Source: Cinnamomum chago
Lineage: Eukaryota > Streptophyta > Magnoliopsida > Laurales > Lauraceae
Direction: 5' to 3'
DNA length: 64,000 bases
Assembly: GCA_038049695.1 (NCBI GenBank)
Contig: CP142456.1
Span: 67,173,922 to 67,237,921 of the forward strand
Below are positions 32,610 through 60,876 of this stretch, piece after piece. Made by a program: the position numbers and the translations under genes. The notes beneath the pieces are model-generated. The model made no database searches. It was not told the origin of the DNA and saw only the letters and a list, made by a program, of their open reading frames with translations. The stretch's first letter is position 1; every line of letters starts with the position of its first letter.

Positions 32610-35600
32610 TTAAGAACTATCTTGAAGGCCCATGCTTTCAGTATGTCCTTGAAAGGTCTTTGGAGGTAGTCCTTTCGTGAATATGTCTGCGACCATGAAA
32701 TCTGTACGTATAGACTCAATGACAAATTTTTGTAATCTAACATCTTGCTTCAGTGATAGATATTTAAGGTCCATGTGTTTGGATCCTTTAGATATCCTGT
32801 CATGCTTAAAGAAGAAGGTTGCAGCATCATTATCACAGTAAATAGTTAATGGCTTAGAGATGAAACTCAAGGCTCCAAACTGAGTGATAAAATTACGCAA
32901 CCATGTTCCTTGAATTGCAGCCTCATAACATGCCACATATTCAGCCATCATGGTGGATGTGTAAAGCAACTCTGATTTCTGGCTTTTCCATGATATTGCT
33001 CCTCCACATAAGAGATACACATAGCCAAGAGTGCAGAGTCTGGTGTCAGGACATCCAACAAAATCTGAATCGGAATAACCAATCACCTGTAGGTGACTTG
33101 ATTTTCTGTATGTGAGCATATACTTCCTTGTTCCCTTGAGGTATCGCAGTACTTTCTTTGCAGCTTTCCAATGAGCGATTCCTGGGTTACTTTGAAATCT
33201 ACCCAGCATGCCAACAGCATGACTAATGTCAGGTCTGGTACAGACCTGTGCATACATCAAACTTCCTACAAGAGAAGCATAAGGATATTTTTCCATTTCT
33301 TTACGTTCCAATTCGTTCTGTGGACACTGCGTAAGATCAAGCTTGTCTCCTTTATGCAGTGGAACAGGACTAGAGGAACATGTCATCATGCCAAATCTCT
33401 CTAGAACTTTGTCAATATATGCTTGTTGAGACAATCCCAAAATACCAAGTGACCTATCACGAAATATTTCTATTCCTATCACATAGGAAGCCTCACCCAT
33501 ATCTTTCATTTCAAAGTTCTTAAAGAGATAATCCTTTGTTTCATGTAACAAACCAAGGTCGCTACTAGCCAGTAATATGTCATCAACATACAGAACCAAA
33601 AATATGAACTTACTCCCACTGATCTTGAGATATATGCAAGGGTCAATTATGTTTTCTTTGAAATCGAAGGCAGTAATGATTTCATGAAACTTTAGGTACC
33701 ATTGCCTCGAAGCTTGCTTCAGTCCATATATTGATTTCTTAAGTTTGCAAACCATGTCTTCCTGACCTTCAATTATGAAGCCTTCAGGTTGACGCATGTA
33801 GACTTCTTCTTCCAAGTCTCCATTAAGAAAGGCAGTTTTCACATCCATTTGATGTAACTCGAGGTCATAGTGAGCTACTAATGCCATGATAATTCTAAGA
33901 GAATCCTTCCTGGACACAGGGGAAAAAGTCTCAGTATAATCAATGCCTACTTTCTGATTAAAACCTTTGGCAACAAGTCTAGCTTTATGTCGTTCAATAT
34001 TGCCTTTGCAGTCGCGTTTGGTCTTGAAGACCCATTTACAGCCAACTGGTTTGTGTCCTGAAGGCAATTGAACAACTTCCCATACTTGATTTTCATCCAT
34101 AGATTTCAATTCATCCTTCATGGCATCAATCCAATTACTAGAATTAACATCCTTAATGGCTTGTGAATAAGAAACCGGATCTTTAATTGTCCCTTCTTCA
34201 GATTCTTCTTGGTAAAGCATGTAATCATCAGAAATAGCTGATCTCTTTTGTCTTTGAGACCTTCTTAATGCTGGTTCCTCCGGTGCTTCATCCATATGTT
34301 CATTGGTGACAATCTCATTATGGAGTTGTTGATCATTTATTGGATTTTCCTCATTGTTAAATGGTTCAACAACGGGAGGATTTCCAACATCTTTCGGAAT
34401 GGAGGGTAAAGGGATAGGTACCCTGATTTCCTGAATGATCACATCTTGAGTTTTATTACTCCCACTGATTTCACCATTTTCAAAGAATCTAGCATTACCG
34501 GTTTCAACAATTCTTGTACTATGGTTAGGGCAGTAAAACCTAAATCCTTTGGACTTTTCTGGGTAACCTATAAAGTAACCACTGATTGTTTTAAGGTCCA
34601 ATTTCTTTTCATGTGGGTTGTAGACTCTAGCCTCAGCTGGGCAACCCCAAATTTGGAGATGTCTTAAACTAGGTTTCCATCCTTTCCACAGTTCAAAAGG
34701 TGTCTTTGGAACTGCCTTACTGGGAACCCTATTCAAGATATAAACAGTTGTGCGTAGAGCATCCATCCACAAGGATATAGGTAAGTTGGCATGACTCATC
34801 ATGGATCTAACCATTTCCATGTATGTACGATTTCGCCTTTCAGCTACACCATTCTGCCATGGAGAACCAGGCGTTGTGTATTGGGCAACAATTCCAAGCT
34901 TTTGGAGGAGTTTTGCAAAAGGTCCAGGATGTTGTCCTGTTTCATCATACCTACCATAAAACTCACCACCTCTATCTGACCTTATGATTTTCACTTTTCT
35001 ATCTAGTTGCCTTTCGACCTCAGTAATGAACACTTGTACAGCATTCACAGACTGAGATTTGTCATGCAACAAGTATAGGTAACAGTAACGTGAGTAATCA
35101 TCAATAAAGGTAATGAAGTATTTTTCTCCCCCAAAGGTTGGAACATCAAAAGGTCCGCAAATGTCTGTATGAATTATTTCAAGAAGCTGAGTACTTCTTG
35201 TGGCTCCTATCTTTGTGTGTTGTGTTGTTTTGCCTTTAATACAATCCACACATACTGTAATATTAGTAAAATCTAGATCCGGAAGGACACCATCTTTTAC
35301 TAATCGTTTGATTCTTTCACTGGATATGTGACCCAGTCTTTTATGCCACAAGAAATAAGAGTCATTTTTAGATGACTTTCGTTTTGTTTCCTTAGAATGC
35401 AGGGTAAGATGGGTTTCAGTAAATGGACTATTAAGATGAAACTTGTATAGCCCGTCAATCAATATTCCAGAACCAATGCGACTAGAATCTTTAAATAAAC
35501 TGAAATTACCATTTCCTACTTCAAACGAATAACCAACTTTATCAAGTGCACTTACAGAAACCAAATTACGAGAAATAGACGGAACATAAAGAGTTTGACA

Positions 35601-36803
35601 TAAATCTAACTGATAACCGCTATCTAAAACAAGACGAAAAGTGCCAATAGCTTCAACTGGAGCTTTGTCTTTGTTCCCCATAAAAAGAAAGTTCTCACTT
35701 GGGTTTATGGTTTGGATCGTAAGGAATCCCTGCATTGAATTGGGAACATGAACATTAGCACCAGTGTCAATCCACCAAGTATCAGAAGAAACAGAAGGAA
35801 GATTTGATTCGAAATAACTTACGAAACCCATAGGGTTACCTTTCTTTTCGAACCATTCTTTACGTTTAATGCAGTTTGCCTGAAAATGTCCAGGTTTCTT
35901 GCAAAATCTGCATATGTCTTCCTTCTTTTTCTTCTTGGGGTTATGACTAGCCTCATTAGGTCTGGGTGGTGCCCTTTTCTGGCCTGAATTATTCTTTTTC
36001 CCAGCTTTATGTCCAGCTCCTTGAACAAGATGAGCTACTTTAATACCTTGTTGATTCAGCCTGACCTCCTCTTGAACCAGTTTATTAGCCAATTCATTCA
36101 CTGTCCACTTGTCCGTAATAGTGTTGTAGTGAATTTGGAAAGGCCCGTACTGAGGAGGTAAACTATTTAGGATAAATTGGACAAGAAATGCCTCATCCAC
36201 TGATAATCCCAAATTCTTAAGTTTAGCAGCAAGGTTGGTCATCTCAATGACATGCTCATGCATTGAGCGAGTGCCATCAAACTTCATGGTTGTAAGATCT
36301 GCCATTAGTTTCCCAGCAAGGGATTTGTCTGCAGTCTTAAACCTATCTTCAATGGCCTTCATATAGTCCTTAGCATTCTCAGGTTTGGGAAGTGATGTTT
36401 TGATGTTGGTGGCAATAGTCATTCGCATAAACATGGTGCTTAGTCTGTCAGACCTCTCCCAAGCATTAAAGAGGGCCTTTTCGTCAGGGGTACTTTTTTC
36501 AGTGAGTGGAGCTGGCTTATCTTTAAGAAGAGGCATATCCAGTTCGAGTACCCCCAATGTGAACTCAACTTGCTCTTTCCATTCTGAAAAGTTGGTTCCA
36601 TTGAGCTTAGTGACAGAGGTAGCATGCGAATTCAGATTAGTGGGTGCAACAACTGTAATAGAGAAACAACAATAAGGCTTCAATTTAAAAAAGAAGACAA
36701 CACATGCATAAGATATGAATATATACGACATAAAATTTAGATGCTCCTGTGGGTAGTCACCATAATTTCTATACATTATACCATCTAAGGTCGTCATATT
36801 CAA
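32610..36803 (-). CDS. Copia gag-pol polyprotein
   Basis: One open frame, up to 1397 codons. Domains in order (approximate residues): UBN2-type gag (70-270); CCHC knuckle [14 protein letters not shown] (~296-309); aspartic protease [11 protein letters not shown] (~343); GAG-pre-integrase [12 protein letters not shown] (~484); integrase with [17 protein letters not shown] and [14 protein letters not shown] giving the D, D, E residues (~543, 607, 650); reverse transcriptase from [20 protein letters not shown] (~905) to the catalytic YVDD in [10 protein letters not shown] (~1071); RNase H from GYSDSDFVG (~1240) to [11 protein letters not shown] (~1372). All key motifs are intact. The integrase-before-RT order is Copia. 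The true gag start may be downstream or in an upstream exon: a pyrimidine-rich TCTCTATTACAG lies just before [10 protein letters not shown]. The protein copies and integrates the element. Confidence 0.95.
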
Positions 36804-52919: not shown

Positions 52920-53438
52920 ATGGGTTTCCCTTGTAATTCTTATGGGGTTGTAATGTTTGAACCTTTAGTATATGTACTGAATTTCTTAGATCATGTACTT
53001 CTCTTGGTTAAACTGGCATTCTTTTATCTGGGTCTGTTTGATCTAACTGGTCTGGCACCTCCTGTGGATGATCACGCGGATCGTGTGGCTGTCGTGAATC
53101 GCCCGGCTCCACCATCACCACCAATCACTTCCAAGTTGATCAAGAAGAGCCTCCCAGTAGTAGAATTCGCAGCGTTTGCAGAGAGATCAGGGAGATACAA
53201 AGAGGACAACCAGAACCAGGTATGTGTAGTCTGCTTGGGTTGTCTAGAGAGGGACCATCAGATCAGAGAGTTGAGCAACTGTTCACATGTTTTCCATTCT
53301 GGGTGCCTGGATAAGTGGGTGGACCATGGTCAAATGACATGCCCCATGTGTAGATCCAAGCTACTGCCTGAAGGATATGAGAGAAAATACTATATGAGAA
53401 TGTGGATTGCAAGAAGATTTTCATATTTCCTGGGCTAA
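52920..53438 (+). CDS. RING-H2 E3 ubiquitin ligase, BRH1/RHA-type, 172 aa
   Basis: Single exon. Residues 11-45 are hydrophobic (VMFEPLVYVLNFLDHVLLLVK, then FFYLGLF), a likely membrane-anchoring N-terminus. A Pro-rich linker (RPAPPSPPI, 61-69) follows. The RING-H2 domain spans residues 102-144: C102, C105, C121, H123, H126, C129, C141, C144, a complete C3H2C3 zinc-binding set. The tail (MRMWIARRFSYFLG) is basic and hydrophobic. Length, MGFP start and RING spacing fit the small plant RING-H2 family that includes brassinosteroid-responsive BRH1 and RHA proteins. These bind an E2 and pass ubiquitin to targets. ATG choice is supported by the TATA box and leader. The tandem copy at 27622 lost its coding part. 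Confidence 0.9.
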   Translation: MGFPCNSYGVVMFEPLVYVLNFLDHVLLLVKLAFFYLGLFDLTGLAPPVDDHADRVAVVNRPAPPSPPITSKLIKKSLPVVEFAAFAERSGRYKEDNQNQVCVVCLGCLERDHQIRELSNCSHVFHSGCLDKWVDHGQMTCPMCRSKLLPEGYERKYYMRMWIARRFSYFLG

Positions 53439-56100: not shown

Positions 56101-57558
56101 TAAATTTCAAAATAACAGCCTGAGTTTAGTTCAAAAATTCAATTAAAATCTGCCAAATGGAGATAAATTTATCAGAAACTCAGCTATATTTTTCAAAACC
56201 TCAAATAAATTTGCCAAAAACTCAGATAGAATTGTCCAGAACTCAGATAATTTTTTTCCAGAACTTAGATAACACTACAAGAAATTTAGGCTGTTGTGAC
56301 GAAATCTGAAGACGAATTTTTTTTTTGTCTTAAAAGAACACCCAAAGGGGACGAAATATAAATTTTGTCGTCTATTTTCATTTTTTTCAAAAGTATTGGA
56401 GACGAAAACAAAATTTCGTCTACAAAAATATGGCGCCAACTTGTTTTGTGTTGGCGCCAATTATTTTAGCTCATTAGAGACGAAAACTGTTGTCACAAAA
56501 TATAATTTTTTTTTGCGACGAACGTAATTCGTCACCAATAAGGATAAGTTATGGAAGACGAACATATTTCGTCACCAAAATAAGGCGCCAATTTCATTTG
56601 CTTTTGGCGCAAATTATTTTAGCTCATTGGAGACGAACATTTTTGTCACAAAATATAATTTGTTTTTGTGACGAACTTAATTCGTCACTAATAAGGATAA
56701 GTTATGGAAGACAAAAATATTTCGTCACTAGAATAAGGTGCCAAATTATTTTAGCTCATTGGAGACGAAAATTTTTGTCACAAAATATAATTTGTTTTGC
56801 GACGAACGTAATTCGTCACCAATAAAGATAAGTTATAGACAACGAACATATTTCGTCACCAAAATAAGACGCTAATTTCATTTGCTTTGGCGCGAATTAT
56901 TTTAGCTCATTGGAGACGAAAATTTTTGTCACAAAATATAATTTGTTTTTGTGACGAACATAATTCGTCACTATTAAGGATAAGTTATGTAAGACGAAAA
57001 TATTTGGTCACCAAAATAAGGCACCAATTTCGTTCGCACTTGAGCCTATTCATCTCTTACAATTATTGCTTTGGAAAAGCCTTTAAAATGACTAAAATGG
57101 GCCCCCAAGGCCCTAACATCCATCCCCCTCCCCCACCCCCACCCCAATCCAACGCCTCTTTTCCAAAACCCATTTCCCCCTTTGTCCCTCCATCTATCTC
57201 GGTCTCTTTTTTCCAAAACCCTTTTCCCCCTTTTCCAAAACCCTTTTCCAGAAGAGGAGAGAAGAACCATTTTCCCCATTTTCCAAAATCCTTTTCCAAC
57301 ATCTCCCACCCATCATCTCAATTAAGCAACAGCCCCATGGCTCATTGACCCCCATCAATCATCATCACCCTCCATCAACACACGCAGTGCAGACCCATCC
57401 CTGATCGGTGATCCCTCTCATCTCTACTTCTCTCAGTCTCTCTCGCCTAGAATTCGCAGATGCAGCCACCATCACCAATCACCATCATTTGTGCCCATTC
57501 TCCTCCATCCAGGAGTCTGCCACCGCCAGGTACACCTACCTCTCTGAGTCTCTGCTAC

Positions 57559-59260
57559 TGTGAGAACTTGGTCCGGGCAGTACCCTTAACCACGAGGCGT
57601 AGCGTGTCAATCACGGGCTTCAAACGGTGAGTCTCCGTTAGCCCACATTAGAAATATTCAAGTCCTGACCTAGGACTTATAAGTCAAACCCTGTATTAAC
57701 TTAGCGTGAGGTTTTTTAAAACCATGCGTCCTCAGAAATCGTAAGAACTTCGAATTTAAGCGTGCTCGGGCGGGTGCAGTATTAGGATGGGTGACCTCCT
57801 GGGAAGTCCTCGCGTGTGCACGTGGGCCAAAGCGGACAATTTCATGTTGAGTTGGGCGGGGCTGTGACAGTTGGTATTAGAGCCGAGGACGACTCTATTT
57901 CTAGTGGGGGAGAATGTGAGATCTTGGTCTGGACGGTACCCTTAACAACTAGGCGTAGCGTGTCAATCACGAGCTTCAAACGGCGAGTCTACGATAGCTT
58001 GCATCGGAAATATCCAAGTCCTGACCATGGGCTTATAAGTTAAACCCCGTATTAACTTAGCATGAGGCTTTTTAAAACTGTGCGGCCCCGAAAATCGTAA
58101 GAACTTCGAAGTTAATCGTGCTTGGGCGGGATCAGTACTAGGATGGTTGACCTCCTGGGAAGTCCTCGCACGTACACGTGGGCCAAAACGGACAATTTCA
58201 TGCTGAGTTGGGCTGGGCTGTGACAGTTGGTATCAGAGCTGAGGACGACTCGATCTATTTCTAGTGGGGGAGAATGTGAGATCTTGATCTGGGTGGTACC
58301 CTTAACAACTGGGCGTAGCGTGTCAATCAAGGGCTTCAAACGGCAAGTCTACGATAGCCTACATCTGAAATATCCAAGTCCTGACCATGGGCTTATAAGT
58401 TAAACCCCGTATTAACTTAGCATGAGGCTTTTTAAAACTGTGCGGCCCCGGAAATCGTAAGAACTTCGAAGTTAATCGTGCTTGGGCGGGATCAGTACTA
58501 GGATGGTTGACCTCCTGGGAAGTCCTCGCACGTACACGTGGGCCAAAGCGGACAATTTCATGCTGAGTTGGGCTGGGCTGTGACAGTTGGTATCAGAGCC
58601 GAGGACGACTCGATCTATTTCTAGTGGGGGAGAATGTGAGATCTTGATCTGGGCGGTACCCTTAACAACTGGGCGTAGCGTTTCAATCAAGGGCTTCAAA
58701 CGGCAAGTCTACGATAGCCTACATCTGAAATATCCAAGTCCTGACCATGGGCTTATAAGTTAAGCCCCGTATTAACTTAGCATGAAGCTTTTTAAAACTG
58801 TGCGGCCCCGGAAATCGTAAGAACTCCGAAGTTAAATGTGCTCGGGCGGGAGCAGTACTAGGATGGTTGACCTCTTGGGAAGTCCTCGCATGTACACGTG
58901 GGCCAAAGCGGACAATTTCATGCTAAGTTGGGCGGGGCTGTGATAGTTGGTATCAGAGCTGAGGACGGCTCTATTTCTAGTGGGGTGAATGTGAGATCCT
59001 GGTCCGGGTGGTACTCTTAACCACGGGGCGTAGCGTATCAACCATGGGCTTTAAACGATGAGTCTCCGTTAGCCCGCATCGGAAATATCCAAGTCTTAAC
59101 CATGGCTTATAAGTCAAACCCCGTATTAACTTAGCATGAAGTCTTCTACAATCGTGCGGCTCCAAAAATCGTAAGAACTCTAAAGTTAAGCCTGCTCAGG
59201 CAGGAGCAGTACTAGGATGGGTGACCTCTTGGGAAGTCCTTGAGTTGAGTTGGGCGGGGT
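57559..59260 (+). mobile_element. Tandem multimer of a Cassandra-type TRIM (5S-bearing LTRs)
   Basis: Five LTR-like units start with TGTGAGA at 57559, 57915, 58275, 58635 and 58990. The first four are 311 bp and end TGTGACA (TGTGATA in the fourth). Between them lie spacers of only 44-49 bp (57870-57914, 58226-58274, 58586-58634, 58946-58989). Each starts TTGGTATCAGAGC (tRNA-Met primer site; TATTAGAGC in the first) and ends with a purine tract such as AGTGGGGGAGAA. Each LTR contains 5S rRNA-like sequence including AGTTAAGCGTGCT and GGATGGGTGACCTCCTGGGA. LTRs with 5S sequence are the hallmark of Cassandra. The fifth unit is shortened after AAGTCCTTGAG and its end is lost. No flanking target duplication found. 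Confidence 0.85.
57740..57815 (+). repeat. 5S rRNA-derived segment in LTR unit 1
   Basis: Reads as the 3' two-thirds of plant 5S rRNA: AGAACTTCGAATTTAAGCG, then GGATGGGTGACCTCCTGGGA and AGTCCTCG, with the A-box, intermediate and C-box regions of the internal pol III promoter recognisable but mutated. Equivalent segments are at about 58097-58170, 58457-58530, 58817-58890 and 59168-59240. Not a working 5S gene: the 5' part is missing. Confidence 0.8.
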
Positions 59261-60876
59261 AAATGCGACAAAAAAATTTCATCTCTATTTCTTATATTTA
59301 TGACAAAATATTTTTGTCTCTAATTTCTTCCTTTAATGACAAATTATTTTGTCACTAATTACTTACAAGTATGTTTCCAACATAGTGTATTGGAGACGAA
59401 AAAAAATTACTTGTTTCCATCAGTGTATTGGAGACAAAAAAAAATCGTCACTAATTTATCTTTTTCAGTGACGAATTTTTTTTTTCGTCACCACCACCTT
59501 TCTGCGACGAGGCTTTGGCGACAACAAGGGTGACGAAAAATTTTCGTCTTAATTAGTTTCGGTGACGAAATATGTACAATTTGGGACAAATCTGTTTCGT
59601 CATTAGACCCCAAATTTCTTGTAGTGTAAATTAGCCAAAAACTCGGGTACATTTTTTCGTAACTCAGACAAATTTGCGCAAAACTCAAATATATTTGATA
59701 AAAAATGAAAAACTCAGATAAATTTAACAGAAACTCATATAAGTTTGTTAAAACTCAGATTAACTTGACAAAAATTTAGATAGATTTTACAAAAACTCAG
59801 ATAAATTTAATAAAAACTCATATATATTTGTTTCTGGGCTTCTGCACAACGGGTCAGGTCTTACCTAGACTGGACCGAGCCCGATACTGAACCCAAAACA
59901 AAAAAGAAAATGGGTTCTTCTTCTTCATTCTGTTTCTGCAATTGACCCGAGGGGCGGTCTTCTTCTTCCTCAGCTACGGGATTGCAGCGGCGGCGGTTAA
60001 TTCTCCGGCAGCGGTGGGTGAACCAGAAAATCAGAGAGAAAACTATCTTTGGAACCAAACAGTCCATGTTGGACTTGCAAGGATGGGGTGGTCTTCTGAT
60101 GAATGGCGGATGGAGAAAGAAGAATGGGTTGCAGGGATCGGCCTCAAGTGATGGGGATAGAGGAGAGACCGAGATGGGCGATGGAGATGTTTGATTCGCA
60201 AGGGAGGCTCTGAGATGGGTCGGTAATGGAGAGACAGGCGTGGAGAGGGTGAGGCGTGAGAGAGGAATGGTGATGGAGAGGTCCATGCAGGGAGGAAGAA
60301 GATGGATATGGAGGGCTGCTGGGCGTGGTTTTTGAGATGGGACCAGGGTGATGAGACTGTGCGAAAGGGAGCGATGCAGGGTGATCAAGAGAGGGAGTGG
60401 TGAGAGGTTCTGCGCAGGATGGAGAGGGATCGTGAGAGGGAGATGGGGATGAGGTCGCATGGGAGATGGAGGAGAGGGGATTCTACGCCTAGGAGAGATG
60501 AGACGAAATATGGGTTGATGAAGAAGAGGGATAATACAAGATTTGAAATTTCAAATTTCAAATTTTTATGCATAAAACAGTTGAAAGGGTAAATCAGTCA
60601 TGCCAGTTGTATCTAGCGACCTCTCACCGAAATATTTTCAGTTGCATGGACTACGGGACTTAGAGGAAAAATTGATGGACTGGAAGCCTTACAAGACCTC
60701 TATGATGGACCTTTCGCTAATTTACTCTTTTTTTAATAGCTCTTAAAACTCAGGTAACACGTATCAGTTTGGTTGTCACTAAAATTCATCTTTTAGGTTA
60801 TCGTTTTGAGTAACAAAAGATTATTTTTTTCAAGCCCCCCTCAAAAGAAAACCATGGGTCCGTCACTACCTATATA

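Follow-up and report, generated by a model that had tools for sequence, protein, structure and literature searches.

Structure of the Locus

The window, i.e., the whole stretch of 64,000 nucleotides of Cinnamomum chago DNA that was analysed (contig CP142456.1, positions 67,173,922 to 67,237,921), contains a tandem array at 57559-59240, with a period of 360, 4.7 copies and a score of 2523 in Tandem Repeats Finder. The array (57559-59260) is a multimer of a Cassandra-type TRIM with common LTRs. It consists of five head-to-tail units, which start at 57559, 57915, 58275, 58635 and 58990: four of these are complete LTRs of 311 bp each, and the fifth has part of its 3′ end missing. A first-pass annotation of this DNA had described five 311-bp units; repeat detection and the alignment of units and spacers confirm the five-unit array, the length of 311 bp holding for four LTRs but not for the truncated fifth. 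The features of the array and of the sequence around it are as follows (mismatches are those in the 5S boxes A and C).

56270..56272: target site duplication (TSD) of the CACTA element, left copy, TAA
56273..56287 (+): CACTA 5′ terminal inverted repeat CACTACAAGAAATTT, 15 bp, perfect
56273..57030 (+): CACTA left subterminal repeat region, rich in GACGAA/TTCGTC, with tandem repeats
57031..57558 (+): CACTA left inner segment, common to copies, ending in CTCTGCTAC at the LTR
57559..57869 (+): LTR unit U1, type a; box A with 1 mismatch, box C intact
57870..57914 (+): internal region I1, 45 bp; primer-binding site (PBS) with one mismatch, purine tract
57915..58225 (+): LTR unit U2, type b; 1 mismatch each in boxes A and C
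58226..58274 (+): internal region I2, 49 bp
58275..58585 (+): LTR unit U3, c/b hybrid, the extra unit of this copy; 1 mismatch each in boxes A and C
58586..58634 (+): internal region I3, 49 bp
58635..58945 (+): LTR unit U4, type c; 1 mismatch each in boxes A and C; best Rfam 5S match at 58788-58899
58946..58989 (+): internal region I4, 44 bp; purine tract interrupted by T
58990..59260 (+): LTR unit U5, type d, 3′ part deleted; box A with 1 mismatch, box C intact
59261..59626 (+): CACTA right arm, subterminal repeats
59612..59626 (+): CACTA 3′ terminal inverted repeat
59627..59629: TSD of the CACTA element, right copy, TAA

Elsewhere in the window there is a Copia-type polyprotein frame of 1397 amino acids without a stop (32610-36803, minus strand; gag, integrase, RVT_2), possibly a young element, and a reading frame for a RING-H2 finger protein of 172 amino acids (52920-53438, plus strand). 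A tRNA scan of the window found none.

The LTRs start with TGTGAGA and end with TGTGACA, except that the fourth LTR ends with TGTGATA. The spacers measure 45, 49, 49 and 44 bp in order and have the composition of a Cassandra internal region, which is short and non-coding and holds a PBS and a polypurine tract. The tRNA-Met PBS, TGGTATCAGAGC, is exact in three of the four, the first spacer having TGGTATTAGAGC with one mismatch; a purine tract is present in all four, the 3′ end being GTGGGGGAGAA in three and GTGGGGTGAA, with the tract interrupted by a T, in the fourth. Thus, the tRNA-Met site and purine tract ascribed to the spacers on first inspection are indeed in every spacer, with these two blemishes. 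U2 and U3 differ at 12 of 311 positions, U3 and U4 at 14 and U2 and U4 at 24, whereas U1 differs from U2-U4 at 41-44 of 311 and U5 from the other units at 56-59 of 284. As the pairwise differences are smallest among U2, U3 and U4, the inner units are the most alike, which is what the first-pass annotation had noticed.

All five units match the Rfam 5S_rRNA model (E values from 6e-6 to 1e-3), only one match being given at the gathering score in a scan of the whole window. Boxes A and C are 18 nt apart, at unit positions 196 and 226 (in U5, at 195 and 225). Each box has 0-1 mismatch, and none of the five units has both boxes perfect relative to the published motif.

The Element around the Array

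CACTA (En/Spm) elements are defined by CACTA...TAGTG terminal inverted repeats (PMC10741241, in the part of the source available), and such repeats bracket the array: CACTACAAGAA lies at 56273 and recurs in reverse complement, ending at 59626, which gives a perfect inverted repeat of 15 bp. The stretch 56273-59626 has TAA on both flanks, i.e., a duplication of the 3 bp that is usual for CACTA elements. The arms have the subterminal repeats of such an element: motifs of the GACGAA/TTCGTC type occur at 24.9 per kb in the left arm (56273-57558) and 33 per kb in the right arm, versus 0.23 per kb in positions 1-56000 of the window, so that the arms are about 100-fold denser. The longest open reading frame listed that touches the CACTA element is 153 amino acids long; the one frame tested in the left inner segment, at 56887-57348, has no Pfam match.

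In older copies, the array itself is flanked by GCTAC on the left versus TCCTT on the right, which is not the 5-bp TSD of a Cassandra insertion; the array is therefore Cassandra-derived cargo rather than an intact Cassandra insertion. Judged from its sequence, 56273-59626 is very probably one copy of a high-copy non-autonomous CACTA element (class II) with a Cassandra-type TRIM multimer (class I) as its cargo. The first-pass annotation had overlooked the CACTA transposon whose interior the array forms, and it is this transposon that appears to be the multiplier of the array.

Copies across the Genome

The genome searched was the 1.06-Gb assembly that contains the window. With the array as query, 40 of 1986 candidates were scored and gave 41 matches: the window, one short piece and 39 other long matches (92-95% identity), most of which cover the query from position 357 to about 1700. 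Twenty of the 39 long matches were fetched for reading. All 20 have a four-LTR array (L028 has parts of a second array as well, and L023 one partial LTR elsewhere) and all 20 align to the arms of the same CACTA element, L015 being without most of the left arm. At least one exact CACTA end motif is missing in L015, L020, L026 and L027. Both ends are present in 17 sequences, counting the window. The 3-bp TSD is exact in 15 of these, with 12 different triplets; the two copies without an exact one are L017 and L028. In L028 (G000:C1:7996600-8004600), a composite is inserted in an LTR of another composite, with flanks CGT/GTG and no exact TSD; L028/L060 is thus a case of a composite inside the array of another copy.

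Short patterns gave the following numbers, which are pattern counts rather than a census: the left junction between array and CACTA element at 678 places, the CACTA 5′ end at 645 and the younger right junction at 347 (each with up to 2 mismatches), and the internal region from PBS to LTR at 688 (exact), the reversed-pattern control giving 0 for each of the four. Array evidence (junction or internal region) lies within 2.7 kb downstream of 24 of 25 exact 5′ ends among the C1 and C2 matches listed.

About 65 loci were read, picked by best score, list order or pattern and not at random. One sample comprised twelve exact left-junction matches on C1 in list order, with one already-read locus skipped. 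In 11 of these the right arm follows the array (L037 is cut off and has no right arm), and the arrays of these 11 have one LTR (one locus), two (three loci), three (six loci) or five (one locus). A second sample comprised ten C1 internal-region matches with no exact left junction nearby among the matches listed, taken from the first twelve such matches. The right arm of the same CACTA element is present in all ten; their LTR numbers are two (one locus), three (six), three plus a 36-bp stub (one), four (one) and at least four (one, cut by the edge). Three is the commonest number in both list-order samples, and the range is 1-5. Taking the fetched matches and both samples together, the same CACTA junction or arm was found in 42 of the 42 array loci read. 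The CACTA element thus appears to have carried the array to hundreds of places in the genome.

The repeat period is 262 bp in L034 and 308-309 bp in L046 and L047. In L034 (G000:C1:19649990-19651920), the PBS and purine tract between units are gone, making this locus the nearest to a plain satellite-like repeat.

Free Relatives and the Internal Region

The internal region is 44-49 bp long in 100 of 100 cases among the matches listed (688 in total), with a pattern that allowed about 37-97 bp and needs the exact ends of the family, placing distant relatives outside its coverage. A search for Cassandra internal regions that differ gave 8 places, and the six cut out were five of the same composite and one two-LTR element, L054, which has an internal region of 45 bp and no CACTA arm match in the stretch read. 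LTR ends with other flanks occur at 44 places, of which three were fetched: a free element (L073), a chimera (L074) and the composite again (L075). L073 has two LTRs, an internal region of 45 bp, no CACTA arm match in the stretch read, and flanks ATGAT/ATGGT, which are probably a 5-bp TSD with one mismatch. From L054, L073 and the 100 listed matches, the short internal region seems to be a property of the Cassandra family in this plant and not a product of the array. What had been taken on first inspection for an internal region unusually near the minimum is therefore ordinary in this genome.

In the chimera (G000:C1:42328750-42329510), unrelated sequence ending in GGTCGCGACACA stands where the 5′ LTR would be; behind it come a Cassandra internal region and a 3′ LTR whose two boxes are both intact. 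It was considered as a possible partner element and dropped, its junction occurring once in the genome.

Proposed Founding of the Composite

In older copies, the last LTR of the array is complete at its terminus, which abuts TCCTTTATATTAAACG. The corresponding right pre-insertion sequence, i.e., the TCCTTTATATTAAACG side without the LTR end, occurs at 34 places, and the three that were fetched are all CACTA-arm-like sequence with no LTR match. As LTR-free CACTA-arm sequence matches the right junction, the place now taken by the Cassandra LTR end was once a CACTA site. On the left, too, the junction is exactly at an LTR end. Pattern searches of the genome found no left pre-insertion site (nine of nine matches were mutated junctions), and 0 places with the joined empty site. 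The right-arm sequence TTCCTTTATATTAAACG recurs at a spacing of 194-199 bp (G000: C1:55598920, C4:84739937, C8:55270509 and others), so that Cassandra-free CACTA relatives seem to hold a tandem subterminal repeat of about 196 bp.

The composite would have been founded by insertion of Cassandra into an ancestor of the CACTA element. Probably, there were two such insertions, and recombination between LTRs would have deleted the DNA between them, leaving three LTRs and unmatched flanks; a route to arrays by LTR-LTR recombination is described in the available part of Kalendar et al. (PMC7215508). Because the flanks of the array are not a 5-bp duplication, this two-insertion step is an inference, with about an even chance of being right.

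Its main rival, which concerns the founding step only, is transduplication: a Pack-CACTA element would have captured a segment of host DNA in which a Cassandra array lay beside a gene. Gene capture by CACTA elements is known (PMC13317346, in the part available), and the left inner segment (57031-57558) looks unlike subterminal repeats. However, both ancestral junctions are exactly at LTR ends, and the CACTA-arm sequence in which the right one lies also occurs without Cassandra. A captured host segment is therefore distinctly the less probable beginning, if a serious one.

Following insertion of Cassandra into the CACTA ancestor, a CACTA transposase encoded elsewhere would have moved the composite to several hundred places, and the units within each copy would grow and shrink by unequal crossing over. 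The present spread would need no reverse transcription.

Inheritance and Turnover of the Units

A unit tree covers 146 units of 43 loci; 2 short units were dropped and partial LTRs were excluded. First, middle and last units mostly cluster by position and not by locus, but several older copies (L032, L034, L035, L040, L042, L046 and L047) depart from this pattern. When all loci are included, pairwise arm distances correlate with those of first or last units at r of 0.78-0.95, and 0 of 999 permutations reached values as high. Without the 20 members of the subfamily to which the window belongs, r for first units is 0.57 with the right arm (n = 18; reached by 0 of 999 permutations) and 0.54 with the left segment (n = 8; 32 of 999); for last units it is 0.28 with the right arm (n = 18; 59 of 999) and 0.54 with the left segment (n = 8; 27 of 999). 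The distance correlation is weakened as evidence because it leans on the window's four-LTR subfamily; within that subfamily, the joint inheritance of array and arms is clear. Outside it, divergence is greater for units (0.076-0.119) than for arms (0.058-0.067), so that in older copies the units have either undergone exchange or evolved more rapidly than the arms. In the four-LTR subfamily, the mean divergence between copies is 1.5-2.2%, and the unit types differ from one another by more than this; the array was thus already old before the burst of the subfamily.

The fifth unit of the window records one unequal exchange. Across 19 copies of the four-LTR subfamily, the second unit (b) and the third (c) can be told apart at thirteen diagnostic sites. 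In the window, U2 is b and U4 is c at all 13 sites, whereas U3 switches from c at the first 7 (columns 13-96) to b at the remaining 6 (columns 156-245). U3 is a c/b hybrid from one unequal crossover in a four-LTR ancestor: an unequal exchange of c on one chromatid with b on the other predicts both the observed order, c then b, and the repeat of the 49-bp spacer behind b. The first-pass annotation had invoked recombination for tandem TRIM forms that share LTRs, and in the copy in the window, where recombination accounts for the likeness of the inner units, one crossover is seen directly. Two bases separate U3 from each of its two local sources, and its spacer shows 1 further difference, a divergence similar in size to that among the subfamily copies; U3 is therefore not an exact duplicate made in assembly. 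L038 also has five units, of which the three middle ones (2-4) group together: an independent gain.

Could such arrays be nascent 5S-containing satellites, homogenised as satellite DNA and heading for satellite size, i.e., a retroelement turning into a 5S satellite as was first proposed? Units from the same locus can group (units 2-4 of L038 and the two middle units of L048), the altered periods of L034 (no primer site between units), L046 and L047 point the same way, and in older copies units diverge faster than arms. However, the arrays sampled have only 1-5 LTRs, commonly three, with no long homogenised tandem array among them, and the position classes mostly remain distinct in the unit tree; the proposal is thus not borne out by these arrays, and a satellite in the making is improbable.

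It is still less probable that the multimer itself is mobile, concatemers formed by readthrough or template switching having been retrotransposed as four- or five-LTR elements, with the nesting in CACTA coincidental: multi-unit transcripts are reported in the available part of Kalendar et al. 2020 (PMC7215508), and tandem TRIMs with TSDs exist (PMC4717578, as far as available), but no matching 5-bp flanks border the array, and the common junctions largely refute the idea, the same CACTA junction or arm being present at all 42 array loci of the fetched matches and the two samples.

An equally faint prospect is that collapsed or duplicated repeats in the assembly made the fifth unit, repeats of 96% identity being hard to assemble and no other scored match covering the whole five-unit query: U3 is unlike its local sources by 4 bases, and its spacer by 1, and five units arose independently in L038. 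An assembly collapse is unlikely as well, because the units differ from each other and the four-LTR architecture recurs at 20 of 20 other places fetched.

Both 5S boxes are perfect in 46 of the 144 units scored (4 of 148 were too short): in 12 of 40 first units, 9 of 63 middle units, 24 of 40 last units and the single unit of its kind (1/1). In the window and its subfamily, the numbers are 0 of 20 for first, 0 of 41 for middle and 14 of 20 for last units. Preservation is thus poorest in the amplified middle units, a sign that these are not under selection as 5S promoters. Perhaps the spread of a retroelement array was taken over by a DNA transposon in such a way that this class I/class II composite seeded arrays of 5S-type pol III promoters at several hundred sites, but this is doubtful. 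As arrays gain and lose units at each site, they could be raw material for satellites, or for pol III or small-RNA transcription from the CACTA element.

Comparison with Known Systems

The published work, as far as available, attributes the copy number of Cassandra and its tandem arrays to retrotransposition and recombination. In the present case, the amplification appears to come from a DNA transposon, and Cassandra counts, ages and 5S hybridisation signals could therefore be misread in such a genome. Hundreds of separately placed arrays, seemingly of one ancestor, are also a natural series for tracing, one site at a time, how unequal crossing over adds and removes units. No report of Cassandra, TRIM, 5S or retroelement cargo in a CACTA element was found in open-licence PMC, most subscription papers being outside that coverage.

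Cassandra arrays of the form LTR-internal-LTR, with up to 13 LTRs, are known, and unequal crossing over has been proposed for them (Kalendar et al. 2020, PMC7215508; this and the other sources below are cited for the parts available). They have in common with the arrays described here the 5S boxes A and C 18 nt apart, the PBS TGGTATCAGAGC and the sharing of LTRs; unlike them, the arrays here are inside a CACTA element and spread with it, and the exchange is resolved to one crossover interval. The internal region of 44-49 bp compares with a median of 82 bp for Cassandra of Asteraceae (Maiwald et al. 2024, PMC10853983).

Tandem LTR-retrotransposons in general are known (PMC11899658). Among TA-TRIMs, L3I2 is the commonest form in maize, and L5I4 is known (Gao et al. 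2016, PMC4717578), and recombination has been proposed for the TRIM arrays of Wukong (PMC4528315). Multi-LTR arrays, including those of five LTRs, and recombination are thus common to these systems and to Cinnamomum chago. However, the TA-TRIMs figured have their own TSDs as retroelement insertions, and none is described as CACTA cargo in the accessible part of that paper (PMC4717578).

CACTA elements, for their part, are known to carry tandem arrays or foreign DNA, as does the element described here: the Jozin CACTA of Chenopodium has captured a 171-bp satellite in four named quinoa elements (PMC8978399), and Pack-CACTA elements carry pieces of genes (review, PMC13317346). Unlike these kinds of cargo, as described in the parts of the two sources available, the cargo here is a class I TRIM multimer, and the family that carries it has several hundred copies. 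Thus, the array alone is of a known kind, and what is new is a class I multimer as the cargo of a high-copy class II family.
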